This document shows, piece by piece, positions 5,866 through 50,263 of a stretch of DNA of 51,519 nucleotides; the first letter of the stretch is position 1, and the number at the start of each line of letters is the position of its first letter. The DNA comes from an uncultured Methylococcaceae bacterium (GTDB lineage Bacteria; Pseudomonadota; Gammaproteobacteria; Methylococcales; Methylomonadaceae): positions 1 to 51,519 of the forward strand of contig CAJAVP010000053.1 in NCBI GenBank assembly GCA_903945375.1. The letters are read 5' to 3'. Under the pieces are notes generated by a model. It was not told where the DNA came from and did not search any database. It saw nothing but the letters and a program-made list of their open reading frames with translations. The position numbers and the translations under genes are program-made.

Positions 5866-6570
5866 ATGAAATTCAAACTTCTTATGATGCCAGGGCTATT
5901 GGTGTTAAATTTGTTCAGTGTCGGTGCAAATGCGTCCACTTTTTTGCCGCTTACTGTCACCACCGGATCGGGTAACAATATCACTTATAACGGGGCGAGT
6001 TATCATTTCGAACCCTCCACAACGCCGCCTATTATAGGTGTTTATGGATGGGATGGGGGAAATATAGAGAATCAAAATGAAGAGAATATTGGCAATATAA
6101 TAAATGATACTTTCAAAATCAAAGCGGAATTTAAGGAAAAAGGCGATTTTGATGATAAGAAAAAAGACGATTCTGATGATAAGAAAAAAGACGATTCTGA
6201 TGATAAGAAAAAAGACGATTCTGATGATAAGAAAAAAGACGATTCTGATGATAAGAAAAATGGCGGTTTAGATAATGATGACAGCACTGATCTCCAATCT
6301 ATCGCTACATCTGATCCTTATAATTATTTGGCGGTTCATGTAGGCGGTGGTGAGCTGTTGTTTAGATTTTATGACACCTTTAATGGTCCATTTAAAATCC
6401 AAAAAACCGATGGTACAGGCGGTGGCTTGAGTAACTATAGGTCTTATCTTAGTCCGGAAATTCATGCCCCAACCGCTACACCCGTCCCAGCCGCAGTTTG
6501 GTTATTTGGTTCAGGCTTGGTTGGTTTGATTGGAATCCGCAGAAAATCAAAAACTGCATTGTCGGCTTAA
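5866..6570 (+). CDS. Exported protein with VPVPA-type C-terminal sorting signal and acidic/basic tandem repeats
   Basis: This 234-residue protein has a signal peptide at about 1-24 (cleavage after VGANA). Its C-terminal tripartite sorting signal is VPVPAAVWLFGSGLVGLIG followed by RRKSK, the PEP-CTERM/VPLPA type recognised by exosortases. Residues about 96-131 are a low-complexity block of DDKKKDDS octapeptides encoded by identical 24-bp units. The remainder shows no domain I recognise. A ribosome site AAAGGAAAAAAA precedes the ATG. It is likely a surface or matrix protein anchored or processed at the C-terminus; the function is unknown. A strong terminator follows. Confidence 0.85.
   Translation: MKFKLLMMPGLLVLNLFSVGANASTFLPLTVTTGSGNNITYNGASYHFEPSTTPPIIGVYGWDGGNIENQNEENIGNIINDTFKIKAEFKEKGDFDDKKKDDSDDKKKDDSDDKKKDDSDDKKKDDSDDKKNGGLDNDDSTDLQSIATSDPYNYLAVHVGGGELLFRFYDTFNGPFKIQKTDGTGGGLSNYRSYLSPEIHAPTATPVPAAVWLFGSGLVGLIGIRRKSKTALSA
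6151..6261 (+). repeat. 24-bp in-frame tandem repeat (DDKKKDDS)
   Basis: Four perfect copies of a 24-bp unit starting GATGATAAGAAAAAAG lie at 6151-6174, 6175-6198, 6199-6222 and 6223-6246, followed by a partial fifth to about 6261. The unit length is a multiple of three, so gain or loss of copies keeps the frame. The identity at silent positions suggests recent expansion by slippage or recombination. Confidence 0.95.
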
Positions 6571-44111: not shown

Positions 44112-44945
44112 TCAAAAACTCTCAATTGGCGGCTGCTTGACTCCGCGCCTTGTGACTTTTACGGCATCACCGATTGCCAACGAACCTTTTTGATTATGCA
44201 AGGCATTTTGCCCAAAATACACTTTATTTTGCCATTTTCTGAGACGGCTTAAGGTGCTTAATGGCTCTTTTCCAACCTGTGCTGTGTCGGGGTCTACGGC
44301 TGGCACGGAGCAACGCGAACAGGGTTTGGGTAATCTGAAATCAAGCTCGCCAATTTGGATTTCACGCCAACTGTCTTCAGCATAGGCGGGGCAACCTGAG
44401 ATGACCAGATTGGGTCGAAAACGGCTCATGGGCAGCTCTAATGACATGGCTTGATTGAGTGATGCTAAGGAATTTTCACTGAGGATTAAAAACGGGAAGC
44501 CATCTGAAAAAGCGGTTTGATCGGTGTCGGTGGCATAGCGAGGATCAACAAGGCGAAGCGCCTTATCATCGTGATAGACCAAACGGCAATCTTGGTTGAG
44601 AAAATCGCTAAACCATTGATCCGCCAGTTGAGATACACTTTTGGCGACACAGTGATCTTGCCAAATTGTGCAAGGAATCGAGCGGCCTTCTTGGGGCTTG
44701 AGTGACAGATGCAAATCGTCTCGGTTCGGTGCCGATAGGATGAGGGTATCACCCTCAATTGCGGTGTGTATTAACGCCATTGTCGGTAAGCTACGCTGGC
44801 TTAAAAAATGCCCGGTCTCGTCGATTAACATCCATTTTCTATCATATTGCAGCCCAGTGTTGGTTACTGGCCAATGAGTGACATGAATACCTGCGAGAGA
44901 TTTCACGGGATAAATCAGGATGTCGCTAAGAAAAAATGCTGTCAT
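44112..44945 (-). CDS. MOSC-domain protein without ferredoxin domain (YcbX/mARC-like)
   Basis: This 277-residue protein has an N-terminal MOSC beta-barrel (ILIYPVKSLAGIHV, YDRKWMLIDETGHFLSQR). A MOSC domain follows with SRFRPNLVISGCPAYAEDSW and KPCSRCSVPAVDPDTAQ; Cys209 and Cys212 include the expected molybdenum-ligand cysteine. Such proteins bind molybdenum cofactor and reduce N-hydroxylated substrates. E. coli YcbX has an added C-terminal [2Fe-2S] domain, which is absent here, so an external electron donor would be needed. Its ATG overlaps the stop of the preceding gene as TAATG, tying it to the PLP/ATP-grasp operon. Confidence 0.88.
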   Translation of the reverse strand: MTAFFLSDILIYPVKSLAGIHVTHWPVTNTGLQYDRKWMLIDETGHFLSQRSLPTMALIHTAIEGDTLILSAPNRDDLHLSLKPQEGRSIPCTIWQDHCVAKSVSQLADQWFSDFLNQDCRLVYHDDKALRLVDPRYATDTDQTAFSDGFPFLILSENSLASLNQAMSLELPMSRFRPNLVISGCPAYAEDSWREIQIGELDFRLPKPCSRCSVPAVDPDTAQVGKEPLSTLSRLRKWQNKVYFGQNALHNQKGSLAIGDAVKVTRRGVKQPPIESF

Positions 44946-46342
44946 TAGAGATTACTCTTTACGTGGTGTGGCTCGGTTGAATGAATTAGCCAAGCCGTTT
45001 TTGCTAACACGGTCAAGGCATCGGCAATAATAATTTCGCCCTGATTCGGATGACGCAGTGCGTTGACGATTAAACGGGCACTTAAACACAGGCGTAGTGC
45101 GCTGACTTCAATACCCTCGCGGCTACCGCAAGCAACCGGCTGACCTAGCTGGCAACGAGCTGTCGCTACTGCGGGCTGATCATTGCTTTGAAAACTTATA
45201 GGTACTTGTTGATAAATCGCTACGGTCTCAGCGGTACTTAAAGGCATTCGTTTGGGGGCGGTATGATAAAGCAAAAAAGGGAAAATACTTTGAATATGAT
45301 CCCATTGGCTGGTCGTGATTAATGGCAATCGGTCGAGTTTAGGTACGGGTAAGGCTTCAAAGCAAGCGTGGGAGCAGAGGGCTTGATCAATCGCTTCGGC
45401 AAATTGAGCTAAAAAACGCTCAATCTCAGCGACGGGCAAGGCTTGAAAGGTTTGTAACTCGTATAAGGCAATCTCCCAGCGCATCAATAAGCCAAAATTG
45501 ACGGGGGGCAGGTCTTGAGATAATGCTATGTCATGGGGCTGTGCTGACAATAAAGCGGCTGAAAAAGAAGGGCCGGTTAGAAACTTAGAGCCGGTTAGTG
45601 CGACCAGAAAGCCTTGTGCTAAATAAGCGCGTAGTGTTGCAGCGGCGATACGAAATTGACAGGCATCGACAAAGATAACTAGATGTTCTTTAAAACGTTG
45701 CTGTAAACGTACGACGCAATGCAGACTGGGCGCGATTAAGCCGGTCTTACTTTGATCAAGGACGATCAGCAACACAGTTTGACCGGATGTTACGGCGGAA
45801 TAGACGAGGCTTTCGGCTTCCGCATCAATCTGATTTTGTGGTTTAGGCTGACCGTCAGCTTGTCTGATAGTCAAGGTACAAAGCTCCACATGCCCTTCTC
45901 CTTTGAGTGCGGCGGCGACACCTTTACCCGTTTCATTGGCTTCGATCATGATAATGCGAGGTGGCAATACCGTTTGACGACTGAGCTGTTTTGCTAAGCA
46001 ATGATGCACATCCGTACCGGAAGCTGAAAAGACTAGCTGAGTTGTCGAGGGTAAAGCCAATAATTCAATCAGGTCTTGACGAATACGCACCAATTCTCGG
46101 CAATACACGGCATCCGATGATTCGCAGGCTAAGTCGAGCTGTAAACGATGATGCAAACGTTCCGCCGCGTGATAGCCGTCATCTGAGACCACCGATGCGG
46201 TAGCAGAGCCATAAGCCAATAGCGTAGGGTCTGGGTAAGGCCGACAACCATACGCATTGATACTGGTCTGAGCATGTACAGCAATACGCGCATCACCGCC
46301 TTCGATTAGTAATTGCTGAATGGGGGGAAGTATGGATTTAAT
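44945..46342 (-). CDS. Class-V-aminotransferase-like PLP protein, start codon uncertain
   Basis: This protein has the fold-type I features of class V aminotransferases: VIFVDACQFR, with the PLP-ring aspartate and glutamine, and LVALTGSKFLTGPSFSAALL, with the probable Schiff-base lysine (Lys212 counted from TTG 46219). The first conventional start is that TTG, but the frame stays open for 41 further codons that look conserved (LLIEGGDARIAVHA, NAYGCRPYPDPTLLAYGSATAS). I therefore extend it to ATT at 46340-46342, which overlaps the stop of the ATP-grasp gene as ATTAA. A CTG at 46358-46360 is another option. The substrate is unknown. It is third in a coupled four-gene operon. Confidence 0.75.
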   Translation of the reverse strand: MKSILPPIQQLLIEGGDARIAVHAQTSINAYGCRPYPDPTLLAYGSATASVVSDDGYHAAERLHHRLQLDLACESSDAVYCRELVRIRQDLIELLALPSTTQLVFSASGTDVHHCLAKQLSRQTVLPPRIIMIEANETGKGVAAALKGEGHVELCTLTIRQADGQPKPQNQIDAEAESLVYSAVTSGQTVLLIVLDQSKTGLIAPSLHCVVRLQQRFKEHLVIFVDACQFRIAAATLRAYLAQGFLVALTGSKFLTGPSFSAALLSAQPHDIALSQDLPPVNFGLLMRWEIALYELQTFQALPVAEIERFLAQFAEAIDQALCSHACFEALPVPKLDRLPLITTSQWDHIQSIFPFLLYHTAPKRMPLSTAETVAIYQQVPISFQSNDQPAVATARCQLGQPVACGSREGIEVSALRLCLSARLIVNALRHPNQGEIIIADALTVLAKTAWLIHSTEPHHVKSNL

Positions 46343-47555
46343 GGGTTTCTCGTTGTGCAGTTTGCATTATTAGTTGCTGGAAGGCGGTAAAAATTTTGTA
46401 CATTTGCGGTTGTTTATAGGGAAATAAAGCCACTGAATCGAGCGCATGAACAATCATGCAGCTATCGACTTCAAAAATCAGTAATTCACCCTCAGGCGTT
46501 TCGCCACAATCAATGCCCACATAATCCAGCCCCATTGTTTCATCAATGCCACGTAAGGCGAGCTGGTGTTTTTGGGCAAATTCGCTATCAAAGGCGGTCA
46601 TGGTGAAGGCTTCTTCAGCGCGTTTCTCACTGCTTTGTTCCATGCCGGCATTAAGATAATGAATCATCCAATGTTCTGATATGCCCAAATGGCAAAGAAA
46701 AGGACGACCTGCGATTAACACAATACGGTATTTGCGGAACAAGCCATCTGCTCCGCGATAATCAATAAAAGGGGATACATAAAATTCAGCCTCCTGATGA
46801 ATTTGTAAATAGTCATCCAATTCGTGTGCCGTGTGGATTTTTTCTAAACCATGACCCGCATGAGAATCAACGGGACGGATAATGATAGGATAATCGGTAT
46901 CTGCCAACAGCTCATCCAAAGGAATAATAGCCTGACTGACAGGCATTAACTGTTGTCGCGTGACACGCGCAGTGACAGGCATCACAATGCCGGGCAGGGC
47001 TGTAAACAAGCGGCAACTTTGGTCACGAGATAATAAGGCGATACGTTCTGGTCGATTGAGTACCGGTTTGTGCCAGCTTTTCAATTCATCCGCCAAATAG
47101 TTTAATAAGGGCATATTGTCATCAGACTGTGCAACGGCCACAAAAAGCAAATCATGTGCGGGCAATTGGCTGAGTAAGGGTTGATGCGCGTTGGGATACG
47201 CTAATATCAACGTGATCTCGGCCTGTTCTAACAAAAACTCCAGCGGAGAATTTGCCATTAAATCACCGGCGACCATCAGTGCACAGAGTTTCAATGAATC
47301 GGTCTTGCCTGCGGTCGGTGCGATGTAAATTTGCTGAAGCGCAAGTGCATCTAACTGTACTTGCAATGCTAAATCGCGGTTACCGCGTAACTGCAATACC
47401 GTCGATAAATCCATCAAGGTATTCGCCTCTGCTTGCGTTTCTGCGCGTTGAATGAGAGCTGTCCCCAATGGGGCGAGATCGTCGCCGTTATAAGCCCGTC
47501 GCATTAACTGAGCGAGACCCATTAATGGTGGTTTGGATAAATCGGTATCGGTCAT
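46338..47555 (-). CDS. TPR-like/ATP-grasp ligase
   Basis: This 405-residue protein has an alpha-helical TPR-like start (LMRRAYNGDDLAPLGTALIQRA, LQLRGNRDLALQVQLDALALQ) and a Rossmann-like pre-ATP-grasp region (AEITLILAYPNAHQPLLSQLP). A C-terminal ATP-grasp domain follows, with YPIIIRPVDSHAGHGLEKI, FRKYRIVLIAGRPFLCHLGI and GLDYVGIDCGETPEGELLIFEVDS. The acidic and asparagine-type metal ligands of the ATP-grasp are EVD near the end. These enzymes join a carboxylate to an amine or thiol via an acyl-phosphate. It overlaps the decarboxylase gene by ATGA. The substrate is unknown. Confidence 0.85.
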   Translation of the reverse strand: MTDTDLSKPPLMGLAQLMRRAYNGDDLAPLGTALIQRAETQAEANTLMDLSTVLQLRGNRDLALQVQLDALALQQIYIAPTAGKTDSLKLCALMVAGDLMANSPLEFLLEQAEITLILAYPNAHQPLLSQLPAHDLLFVAVAQSDDNMPLLNYLADELKSWHKPVLNRPERIALLSRDQSCRLFTALPGIVMPVTARVTRQQLMPVSQAIIPLDELLADTDYPIIIRPVDSHAGHGLEKIHTAHELDDYLQIHQEAEFYVSPFIDYRGADGLFRKYRIVLIAGRPFLCHLGISEHWMIHYLNAGMEQSSEKRAEEAFTMTAFDSEFAQKHQLALRGIDETMGLDYVGIDCGETPEGELLIFEVDSCMIVHALDSVALFPYKQPQMYKIFTAFQQLIMQTAQRETH

Positions 47556-49006
47556 AAATTATCCTGAGTTTGAGAGATGATGGCCTGTTCGCCAAAAGCC
47601 AATGTCGCGTTCAGTAAGGCATCAATATCACAGTGGCTGGTACGGTGATTGACAATGGCGGCACGAATGGCTAAGTGTCCTTGTAGGCGTGTCGTTGAGG
47701 GCGCGGCAATGCCCGATTCTTGTAAAGCAATCACGATGTGTGCATTGATTTTATCGGCATTGTCGCAGCGATAACGAAAACAGACAATGTTCAAGGTCAC
47801 GGGCGCAAGGAGTTCCAGTTGTGGTGTTGTTTCAATGCGTTGTTTTAAGTATTGAGCCAGCTCGCAGGTGTGCGAAATCATTTGTCCAAGCTGCACGGTG
47901 CCATAAACTTTTAAAGTAAACCAGATTTTCAAAGCTCTAAAACTGCGCGAAAGTTCCGGACCTAAATCACAAGGCCACGGCGAGCCGGCAGCTAAGCCCC
48001 GCGTTTCTCGTTGCAAATAGCTTGCTGATGAGGCGAAGGTGTCAAGCTGATACGCCTGATTTCTTACTAAGATAACACCGGCATCATAAGGGACTTGTAC
48101 CCATTTATGAAAGTCTAGGGCAATCGAATCGGCGCATTCAATGCCAGCTAAACGGTGTGATTGATCACTGGCTAAGATAGCTAATGCACCAAAAGCCCCG
48201 TCAACATGAAACCACAGTTGTTCCTGTTGCGCGATGGTGGCTAGGCGGGGCAGTGGATCAATCGCGCCGACATCCGCACTGCCCGCTGTGCCAACCAGCA
48301 AAAAAGGACATAAGCCCGCTGCTTTGTCTGCCGCAATTGATGCCCTTAGGGCGTCGCTATCCAGTTGATAATCGGCATTAACGGGAATAATTCGCAACGC
48401 TTGGCTACCTATACCGGTTATTTCCAAGGCCTGGGTTATGCTGATGTGTGTATTGGCTGAGCAATAGGCGGTAAGTGGCAATTTCAAAATGCCCGTTTGA
48501 CGCGAGGCACTGCCTAATTTGGCGGTTCTAGCCATCAGCACACCGATTAAGTTTGCCATCGATGTACCACTGACGATTAAGCCGCCCGCTGTATCAGGAA
48601 AAGCAAACCACGTTCGTAGCCATTGGATAACTTGGCGTTCCAGCTCAATAGGCGCGTGGTCACGACCACCTACATTGGCGTTTAAGCCCGCTGCTAGCAT
48701 CTCAGCAAGCATACCAACTGGACTGCCGCCACCATGCACCCAGCCCATAAAACCAGGATGAGCATTGCCTACTGAATAAGGCAAAACAGTTTGCATAAAT
48801 AACGTATGCACGTCGGCAAGATCAATAGGCCCGTCATTCAATGCGTGTTGAAAGCTATCTCGAATGGTTTGCGGTTGGGGCTGCCAGACGGCTTGTTCGC
48901 GGATATGTTCTAGGTAATCGAACATATCATCGAGCATTTGATGGCCTTGTCGGCGTAAATGTGCCCAGTCGGTTGGATCTAGCGAATTTTCAAACCTATC
49001 AGACAT
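47552..49006 (-). CDS. Group II PLP-dependent amino acid decarboxylase
   Basis: This 484-residue enzyme belongs to the aromatic-L-amino-acid/diaminobutyrate decarboxylase family. It shows NAHPGFMGWVHGGGSPVGML at about 81-100, SGTSMANLIGVLMAR at about 146-160, His187 that stacks on the cofactor ring (SANTHISI), HVDGAFG with the ring aspartate Asp269, and the Schiff-base Lys301 in LDFHKWVQVPYDAG. The start ATG at 49006 gives the normal N-terminus; upstream in-frame codons add 37 unlikely residues. The substrate is not predictable. It leads the operon with the ATP-grasp, PLP and MOSC genes. Confidence 0.9.
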   Translation of the reverse strand: MSDRFENSLDPTDWAHLRRQGHQMLDDMFDYLEHIREQAVWQPQPQTIRDSFQHALNDGPIDLADVHTLFMQTVLPYSVGNAHPGFMGWVHGGGSPVGMLAEMLAAGLNANVGGRDHAPIELERQVIQWLRTWFAFPDTAGGLIVSGTSMANLIGVLMARTAKLGSASRQTGILKLPLTAYCSANTHISITQALEITGIGSQALRIIPVNADYQLDSDALRASIAADKAAGLCPFLLVGTAGSADVGAIDPLPRLATIAQQEQLWFHVDGAFGALAILASDQSHRLAGIECADSIALDFHKWVQVPYDAGVILVRNQAYQLDTFASSASYLQRETRGLAAGSPWPCDLGPELSRSFRALKIWFTLKVYGTVQLGQMISHTCELAQYLKQRIETTPQLELLAPVTLNIVCFRYRCDNADKINAHIVIALQESGIAAPSTTRLQGHLAIRAAIVNHRTSHCDIDALLNATLAFGEQAIISQTQDNL

Positions 49007-49244: not shown

Positions 49245-49682
49245 ATGATTGAAAATGGAGATTTAATCACAGAGAGCCGTGAGCATTCTGCTCAAGATTA
49301 TTCGCGGGCTATGACAGAAATTGATCGACTGGAAAAGGAACTGAGTAAAACCCAACTCGCTTTAGATGCCAGTTTAAAAACACGGGATTTAATGGGCGAA
49401 AGTTTAAAGGCCTGTGCAGAAACTTTGTTGGCGGTCGAAGATCAATTGAGAAGCACTGAAGCGGCTATTATGTACTCAAATTTTTGTATTCAGGAGTGCA
49501 TTAATCACTTTAAGTACGAGAACGGCGTAATGAAATCCGCAGCTGACGCATGGCTTAATGAGTGCATCCATCTGAAGTTCGCCCTACTCAGTGCTAATGA
49601 CAGAATTAAAACGCTTGAAGCAGAACGCGAATCCTCCAATAAATCCGTACCGTCAGGTCCAGATCGTGGTTTGCAGTCATGA
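49245..49682 (+). CDS. Coiled-coil protein of unknown function
   Basis: This 145-residue soluble protein is mostly helical, with heptad-like segments at about 19-75 (RAMTEIDRLEKELSKTQLAL) and about 105-132. Three cysteines (57, 80, 84) lie in the middle, including FCIQECINHF. A strong ribosome site GGGAGGTG precedes the ATG. Its stop overlaps the start of the SprA-like gene by ATGA, so the two are co-translated and may act together. No family is recognised. Confidence 0.7.
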   Translation: MIENGDLITESREHSAQDYSRAMTEIDRLEKELSKTQLALDASLKTRDLMGESLKACAETLLAVEDQLRSTEAAIMYSNFCIQECINHFKYENGVMKSAADAWLNECIHLKFALLSANDRIKTLEAERESSNKSVPSGPDRGLQS

Positions 49683-50263
49683 TTTCATCCGTGGCTCATT
49701 CTAGTATGTCGGTTTATTGGGGGGTTATGCAAAAACCTCAAACCGACTCAGTTTCAGCCAATGGCGCTAAAACCGACACGTCTTCGACAACGCTCGATCC
49801 TTCTGCTGAACTTAAGCCTAAAACAGCTAATAGCTCTAATAACTCTAACGGCATTCAATTGTCTGATGCCGATTTAAAAATCATCCAACAATTAAAATCC
49901 AGAGATATCGAAGTTAGGGCGCATGAAATGGCACATTTAGCAGCCGCTGGGGGTATTGCCAGCAGTGGTGCTAAATTTACCTATCAGCAAGGGCCTGATG
50001 GCAGCAGTTATGCCATCGGCGGCGAAGTGAGCATAGATACATCATCAGTGTCTGGTAATCCAGCGGCAACGATTAGCAAAGCTCAAACGATAAAAAGTGC
50101 CGCCTTAGCGCCGGCTCAACCTTCCGGTCAAGATTTTCAAGTAGCCGCTATGGCAACGGCGATGGCAGCCAAAGCAGCCGCAGAACTGCAAACCTTGTCT
50201 AAACTCATACAAGCCAACGGTGTTGCCGGTCACTCATCCCCTAAGCTGGATGTTTCGGCGTAG
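49679..50263 (+). CDS. SprA-like putative metalloprotease (CJM1_0395 family)
   Basis: This 194-residue protein has a low-complexity serine/threonine/asparagine N-terminus of about 60 residues. It then has the conserved segment IEVRAHEMAHLAAAGGIASSGAKFTY, whose HEMAH is a zinc-metalloprotease HExxH motif, then GPDGSSYAIGGEVSIDTS. The rest matches the SprA-related family, named after a putative protease. No signal peptide is visible, although SprA-like proteins are often linked to surface functions. It overlaps the coiled-coil gene by 4 nt. A repeat hairpin starts directly after its stop. Confidence 0.8.
   Translation: MISSVAHSSMSVYWGVMQKPQTDSVSANGAKTDTSSTTLDPSAELKPKTANSSNNSNGIQLSDADLKIIQQLKSRDIEVRAHEMAHLAAAGGIASSGAKFTYQQGPDGSSYAIGGEVSIDTSSVSGNPAATISKAQTIKSAALAPAQPSGQDFQVAAMATAMAAKAAAELQTLSKLIQANGVAGHSSPKLDVSA

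Follow-up and report, generated by a model that had tools for sequence, protein, structure and literature searches.

A conserved trio of a PLP decarboxylase, an ATP-grasp ligase and a PLP-fold protein linked to flagella: a candidate cassette for modification of the flagellar filament

In a contig of an uncultured Methylococcaceae bacterium (GenBank assembly GCA_903945375.1, contig CAJAVP010000053.1), whose analysed stretch of 51,519 nucleotides is called the window below, four overlapping and co-directional open reading frames (ORFs) lie on the minus strand. The first (47552..49006) encodes P0002, assigned by its sequence to the PF00282 group II pyridoxal 5'-phosphate (PLP) decarboxylases; the second (46338..47555), the core gene of the locus, encodes P0001, modelled as an ATP-grasp ligase with four N-terminal helices; the third (44945..46342) encodes P0004, a predicted class-V-like PLP protein of fold type I; and the fourth (44112..44945) encodes P0003, with the domains MOSC_N and MOSC. 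A sequence-only reading of this DNA had described the genes as linked by ATGA, ATTAA and TAATG junctions, and the first and last of these overlaps are indeed present: the decarboxylase stop TGA (47554-47552) is overlapped by the ligase start ATG (47555-47553) within the ATGA at 47552..47555, and the MOSC start ATG (44945-44943) by the P0004 stop TAA (44947-44945) within the TAATG at 44943..44947. The ATTAA at 46338..46342, which contains the ligase stop TAA (46340-46338), is also real sequence, but the P0004 start that it implies, ATT at 46342, is rivalled by an in-frame CTG at 46360. Upstream of the conserved N-terminus of P0004, as far back as the preceding stop, there is no ATG, GTG or TTG, and the earliest such codon (46219) would cut off the invariant residues G16, D17 and R19.

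P0002 matches PF00282 at 212 bits, against a cut-off of 27, and its residues H187, D269, H300, K301 and Y330 are invariant among 48 sequences; we take H187, K301 and Y330 to be the stacking histidine, the PLP lysine and the catalytic tyrosine, respectively. Its closest solved relative is the tryptophan decarboxylase of R. gnavus (4obu, 2e-90), a kinship that does not fix the substrate of P0002. Judged by these features, P0002 is a group II PLP decarboxylase that shares its fold and catalytic residues with 4obu, with the 2,4-diaminobutyrate (DABA) decarboxylase RhbB and with PanP. Unlike these relatives of defined subfamily, it reaches no curated subfamily cut-off and stays below that of every NCBIfam model that it matches. 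The DABA and PanP pathways were rejected because P0002 falls short of the corresponding cut-offs (194.3 bits of 900 for DABA decarboxylase and 144 of 606.1 for PanP).

P0001 reaches the cut-off of no Pfam family. Its structural model (predicted local distance difference test score, pLDDT, of 92) contains four N-terminal helices (residues 14-22, 28-40, 44-56 and 60-73) followed by an ATP-grasp body whose top fold match is LysX/ArgX (5k2m, 2e-12; the title of that entry names LysW), with D-Ala-D-Ala ligases (Ddl) and RimK among the further matches, and K275, R277, D349 and E362 are invariant among 66 sequences. LysX/ArgX acts on a substrate bound to a carrier protein. While the ATP-grasp fold is common to all these enzymes, P0001 differs from them in that the likeness stands at fold level, with 11-17 percent identity; the match to the model of RimK family alpha-L-glutamate ligases (TIGR00768) reaches 27.3 bits of the 143.4 required, although the fold agrees. 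By this model, P0001 is an ATP-grasp ligase whose N-terminus is helical. Ligases of this type are named in NCBI records only as "RimK family", "tetratricopeptide repeat-containing" or "hypothetical". Relatives of 627-799 aa bear strong canonical tetratricopeptide repeat (TPR) arrays; such large ligases lie at L081:7420-9741, L082:7079-9478 and L083:8830-10713, the last of them at the end of a fliC-flaG-fliD-fliS block.

P0004 matches none of the Pfam families, that of the class V aminotransferases (PF00266) included, and a sequence search for solved relatives returned none at E up to 1. Its model (pLDDT 90) matches fold-type-I structures with a best E of about 1e-13 and template modelling (TM) scores of about 0.5-0.67, and D226 and K253, the latter in the motif TGSKF, are invariant among 46 sequences. 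From its modelled structure, P0004 is a class-V-like PLP protein of fold type I, in which the residues presumed to bind PLP are those suggested by the motifs and by the general pattern of such enzymes. Kinship to the NifS/IscS-like protein of the window, to the decarboxylase and to the SerC paralogue described below was sought with hhalign and rejected. The domain calls of the sequence-only reading therefore hold, by Pfam for the decarboxylase and the MOSC protein and by structure prediction for the ATP-grasp protein and P0004.

A scan of contigs with the ATP-grasp protein yielded 67 loci from other genomes, spanning Methylococcales, Gallionella, Sulfuriferula, Burkholderiales and others. The decarboxylase, the ATP-grasp and the P0004 genes are collinear in 44 of them, which is more than chance would give. 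The remainder includes four loci in which a SerC-like gene follows the ATP-grasp gene, four with decarboxylase and ATP-grasp genes and no P0004 (L042, L043, L055 and L071, the last one cut) and three with ATP-grasp and P0004 genes and no decarboxylase (L036, L045 and L064, the last two cut). The partial rows L064 and L071 were omitted from alignment A1, L019 from A2, and L014 and L045 from A3. The cultured Methylobacter tundripaludum SV96 also has the trio (L031). A plasmid of Rhizobium tumorigenes carries the three genes in the order ATP-grasp, P0004, decarboxylase, with 43, 28 and 53 percent identity. In a sample of 201 genomes of the order and another of 370 genomes of the class, P0004 occurs in 31 and 4 genomes, respectively, every one of them a ligase carrier; three of the 31 (G052, G084 and G156) have a distant homologue only, and in some genomes, such as G158, G182 and G207, P0004 and the ligase lie on separate contigs. 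At L115, from the lower-quality genome G014, the trio appears to be split over several frames.

On the other hand, the fourth gene does not share this conservation. P0003 matches MOSC_N (PF03476) at 98.2 bits and MOSC (PF03473) at 84.2 bits, both above cut-off, a layout that is presumably of the mARC/YcbX type. A MOSC gene stands behind the trio in all five genomes of the window genus with an intact trio and available downstream sequence (the window, L012, L113, L114 and L117), and among the 67 loci it occurs only in L012 and L015, both of this genus; the 65 counted without it include L013 and L014, also of the window genus, which end before or just past its position. The conserved unit is thus of three genes, not four, and MOSC is a genus-specific passenger of the trio. 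The earlier proposal that the four genes act together, and the gene-neighbourhood search that it called for, consequently stand for the first three families, collinear as said and with P0004 never without the ligase in the 201 order genomes, and fail for MOSC. The molybdenum-cofactor-dependent redox step placed in the pathway is likewise not supported, and MOSC was rejected as a core member.

The PLP enzyme alongside the ligase varies in kind. Six order carriers lack P0004, namely G018, which has a ligase fragment, and G123, G127, G161, G067 and G089, in which a SerC paralogue adjoins the ligase. In the first four of these five, as in G427 and G215 of the class, the ligase-side SerC is a diverged second copy, the canonical SerC being encoded elsewhere (G089 was left out of this comparison); G156, with its P0004-like gene, has a single SerC. 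The decarboxylase is absent from all seven SerC-type genomes tested and also from G052, G084 and G156. The distant P0004 homologues of G156 and G084 (32-34 percent) are immediately flanked by a PLP decarboxylase of the ornithine/diaminopimelate (DAP) type, which has another fold (PF02784, PF00278), and a like gene lies beside the distant P0004 match of G052; a fold-III decarboxylase of this type directly adjoins a distant P0004 homologue at L102:5675-8607 and at L103:6505-7800 and beyond. Among the class genomes, all 12 strong carriers (ligase match with E below 1e-100) have a PLP partner alongside the ligase: P0004 in four, the SerC paralogue in two and the decarboxylase without P0004 in six (G260, G342, G347, G413, G444 and G516). 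A rule of either P0004 or SerC, which fits the order sample, was dropped, as these six of 12 break it. What is constant in these carriers is therefore that some PLP enzyme stands beside the ligase, its kind being variable, and this partner may make a building block by PLP chemistry. A RidA gene closely follows the ligase in L042, L043, L107, L108 and L109, where P0004 is elsewhere or was not seen. At L163:8941-11306, on a Paraburkholderia plasmid, the ligase gene overlaps serC, with a diguanylate cyclase gene upstream and integrase genes downstream.

The occurrence of the ligase is linked to that of flagella, a link absent from the sequence-only reading. Taking FlhA (PF00771) as flagella marker and counting ligase matches of E up to 1e-30, 37 of the 201 order genomes carry the ligase and 124 have FlhA, which is present in 36 of the 37 carriers versus 88 of the 164 non-carriers (Fisher p 1e-7, uncorrected for relatedness). 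In the 20 genomes of the window genus, the same threshold places the ligase in 8 of 8 FlhA-positive and 1 of 12 FlhA-negative genomes, a count that ignores a weak match in G002 (4e-4) and includes G014, whose match is split in two; this within-genus pattern speaks against inheritance alone. The sole FlhA-negative carrier of the genus, G018, has its ligase fragment at a contig start (L116), followed by seemingly the same genes as the diverged second ligase copy of G174 (L087); it is probably a paralogue of that type, and is still counted as an exception. These diverged ATP-grasp copies, each followed by a like 251-aa gene, lie at L087:8269-10291 and L116:1-1372, in two genera. In the class sample, FlhA is found in all 12 strong carriers versus 213 of the 370 genomes overall, two of the 12 being also part of the order sample and relatedness being again uncorrected; of three weak carriers, G265 and G471 have FlhA and G282 does not. 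Taken together, the link between the ligase and flagella is well supported.

The same distribution bears on a role in methylofuran synthesis or another cofactor pathway of methylotrophy, in which an MfnA-like decarboxylase would act with an MfnD-like ligase. The host order oxidises methane, and there are weak matches of P0002 to the MfnA tyrosine decarboxylase model (96.4 bits) and of P0001 to MptN (12.6 bits); yet these scores lie under cut-offs of 299.4 and 350, the ligase is missing in 164 of the 201 order genomes, and its carriers include Gallionella, Sulfuriferula, Undibacterium and Cupriavidus. Since such a pathway would be expected throughout the order, whereas the ligase is found in 37 of 201 genomes, and since the cut-offs are missed, this explanation was rejected as highly improbable.

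Genes for the flagellum also recur beside the ligase in other genomes, namely fliC, flaG, fliD, fliS, fliT, flgM-flgA, fliFGHI and fliK. Among the 30 of the 67 loci with both 8-kb flanks, a strict flagellar gene lies within 8 kb of the ligase in 13 when the glycosyltransferase Maf is counted and in 12 without Maf and self-hits, versus 1 of 40 control windows, each 17 kb long and placed at round coordinates of eight carrier genomes (Fisher p 3e-5 for 13/30); over all 67 loci, the corresponding numbers are 21 and 20. The reference proteins for this count were drawn from the same loci, 30 representatives (two of them chemotaxis proteins) and Maf being verified by Pfam, while motA, motB, fliA, fliI, flgN, flhF, flhG and a second FliT-like cluster were left out as less specific. 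Six of the 13 loci are titled Methylobacter and are therefore not independent; the others come from Gallionella, Sulfuriferula, Sterolibacterium, Undibacterium and a Methylococcaceae bin. In L090 and L091, which belong to one genus, the ligase has a fliC-like gene as its direct neighbour; in L089, L092, L096, L099 and L110 no more than a few genes separate it from a fliC-flaG-fliD-fliS-fliT block. In L112 the trio has a FliT-like gene on one side and on the other a flagellin-like gene, which is probably flgL, since a gene read by eye as flgK stands next to it. The flagellin of the non-carrier G041 was sought in 59 kb near flhA and was not found.

Two ATP-grasp genes with a part in flagellin modification provide precedents. 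In Shewanella oneidensis, the ATP-grasp gene sfmE of the sfmABCDE operon is needed for full modification and mass of flagellin, and SfmA resembles PseI (PMC3765264). Like the trio, this is an operon with a gene for an ATP-grasp carboxylate-amine ligase; unlike P0001, with no Pfam match above cut-off, SfmE has an ATP-grasp_4 domain, and, in contrast to the PLP-bearing cassette, the main text of the paper mentions no decarboxylase, aminotransferase or transaminase (PMC3765264). In the type B locus of Clostridioides difficile (CDR20291_0244-0247), the ATP-grasp gene CDR20291_0245 is needed for full flagellin modification and lies near fliC, as in relatives of the trio, and the flagellin glycan carries taurine, alanine and glycine, that is, an amine and amino acids (PMC5207246, PMC5207245). 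There, however, the modification is carried by a glycan that glycosyltransferases assemble, the ligase domain is Pfam 13535, and genes resembling ornithine cyclodeaminase and sugar aminotransferase take the place of the decarboxylase and P0004 (PMC5207246, PMC5207245). Furthermore, FlmG of Caulobacter is described as a modular flagellin modifier that binds flagellin through a TPR domain at its N-terminus and whose catalytic part is a glycosyltransferase and not a ligase (PMC7591256). Several relatives of the ligase resemble it in their long TPR arrays, whereas the TPR signal of P0001 itself is below cut-off.

The flagellar neighbours, the dependence on flagella and these two ATP-grasp precedents together point to the filament, and we regard it as about evenly balanced whether the trio is a portable cassette for modifying the filament. 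The class carriers without P0004 do not alter this estimate, which depends on the ligase and its PLP partner. Both the flagellin target and the chemistry are what we infer. ATP-grasp enzymes generate acyl phosphates, from which amides are formed, and the folds agree with the earlier view that a decarboxylase, a ligase forming amides and another PLP enzyme make chemical sense together. In the simplest scheme, since a decarboxylase gives an amine and a transaminase, elsewhere, an amino acid, the PLP enzymes would supply the building block, a small amine or an amino acid. The ligase would then activate a carboxylate as acyl phosphate and couple it to the amine as an amide, leaving the group attached either to flagellin or to the flagellin glycan. 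The donor enzymes would be swapped between a fold-I decarboxylase with or without P0004, a distant P0004-like protein with a fold-III decarboxylase, and the SerC paralogue. Given that the TPR domain of FlmG binds flagellin and that large ligase relatives bear TPR arrays, it is plausible that the helical N-terminus of P0001 docks a substrate protein.

Several observations weigh against a modification of the filament. The order and class associations were computed with no correction for relatedness, and PF00771 also covers type III secretion relatives, which were not separated here. No strict flagellar neighbour was found in 17 of the 30 fully flanked loci, five of the six class carriers that have the decarboxylase and no P0004 have none (G413 being the exception), the window trio has no adjoining flagellar gene, and the ligase is without any known partner alongside in 12 of the 67 loci. 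Where plasmids of Rhizobium, Paraburkholderia and Cupriavidus carry the ligase, its surroundings are not flagellar, and in one case it sits amid metal-resistance genes (four of seven records viewed, one of them without annotation). The match of P0001 to TPR_10 reaches 13.9 bits, below the cut-off of 27.5, and the cassette contains no transferase. A sigma-28-like upstream score exceeds every one of its 20 shuffles in 4 of 43 regions, where about 2 are expected, and not in the window; a shared sigma-28 promoter was accordingly rejected. Finally, Maf is rarer in flagellated carriers (8/36) than in other flagellates (41/88; p 0.015), and a dependence on Maf is not supported by these counts.

The absence of a transferase, the many non-flagellar loci, the null sigma-28 result and the rarer Maf make a real rival of the view that the cassette produces a soluble small molecule for motile life, such as a signal, an osmolyte, a metallophore or a motility regulator, and leaves the filament chemically unchanged. 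The plasmid members, beside diguanylate cyclase/EAL or metal-resistance genes rather than flagellar ones, would fit such a product. However, the commonest neighbours at the flagellar loci are the genes of the filament and its chaperones (fliC, flaG, fliD, fliS and fliT), and we hold a soluble product to be possible but rather doubtful.

If the filament is modified, the acceptor may be a sugar or the protein. In the first case the ligase would add an amino acid or an amine to a flagellin glycan, for instance to a nonulosonic acid, and the usual flagellin glycosyltransferases would be needed. Genes of the legionaminic type upstream of fliC in L083 (by Pfam and NCBIfam) and L099 (by the likeness of sequence starts), PseI near fliC in L092, and Maf on the same contig and within 14 kb of the ligase in six of the eight Maf-bearing carriers are consistent with this, as is the C. 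difficile type B locus. But 28 of the 36 flagellated carriers have no match to PF01973, other glycosyltransferase families not having been searched, and this includes the window genome (G000), in which no Maf-type glycosyltransferase PF01973 was found; decoration of a glycan is in our view unlikely. In the second case, a sugar-free route, a TPR-guided ligase would bind flagellin and amidate its carboxyls with an amine from dedicated, interchangeable PLP enzymes, among them P0004. To our knowledge, no amidation of protein carboxylates of this sort has been described in flagella, and we judge this route less likely still.

As an ATP-grasp locus for flagellin modification, the trio would be a variant on the theme known from Shewanella and C. 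difficile, which a direct amidation of flagellin would exceed. The claim that no described pathway has this set of genes agrees with the top-ranked results of our literature search, among which there was no description of the trio, and the top-ranked papers on Methylobacter held no flagellin chemistry for this genus. The modification proposed here gives a testable function to a PLP family without Pfam match (P0004) and to a vaguely named ligase and, if true, predicts that environmental bacteria, methanotrophs and iron oxidisers among them, modify their filaments. The exchange of PLP partners between two decarboxylase folds, a class-V-like protein and a SerC paralogue would then constitute a natural experiment on the chemical group that the ligase accepts.

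As for the surroundings of the operon, a 145-aa ORF, for which a Pfam search gave no match, and an SprA-related gene lie upstream and divergent (49245-50263). Elsewhere in the window, a 234-aa ORF at 5866-6570 consists in part of repeated DDKKKDDS units and has no Pfam match, and chemotaxis genes lie about 25 kb from the trio. Downstream of the operon lie a DUF5765 gene and then two genes which, read by eye, resemble pntAB.

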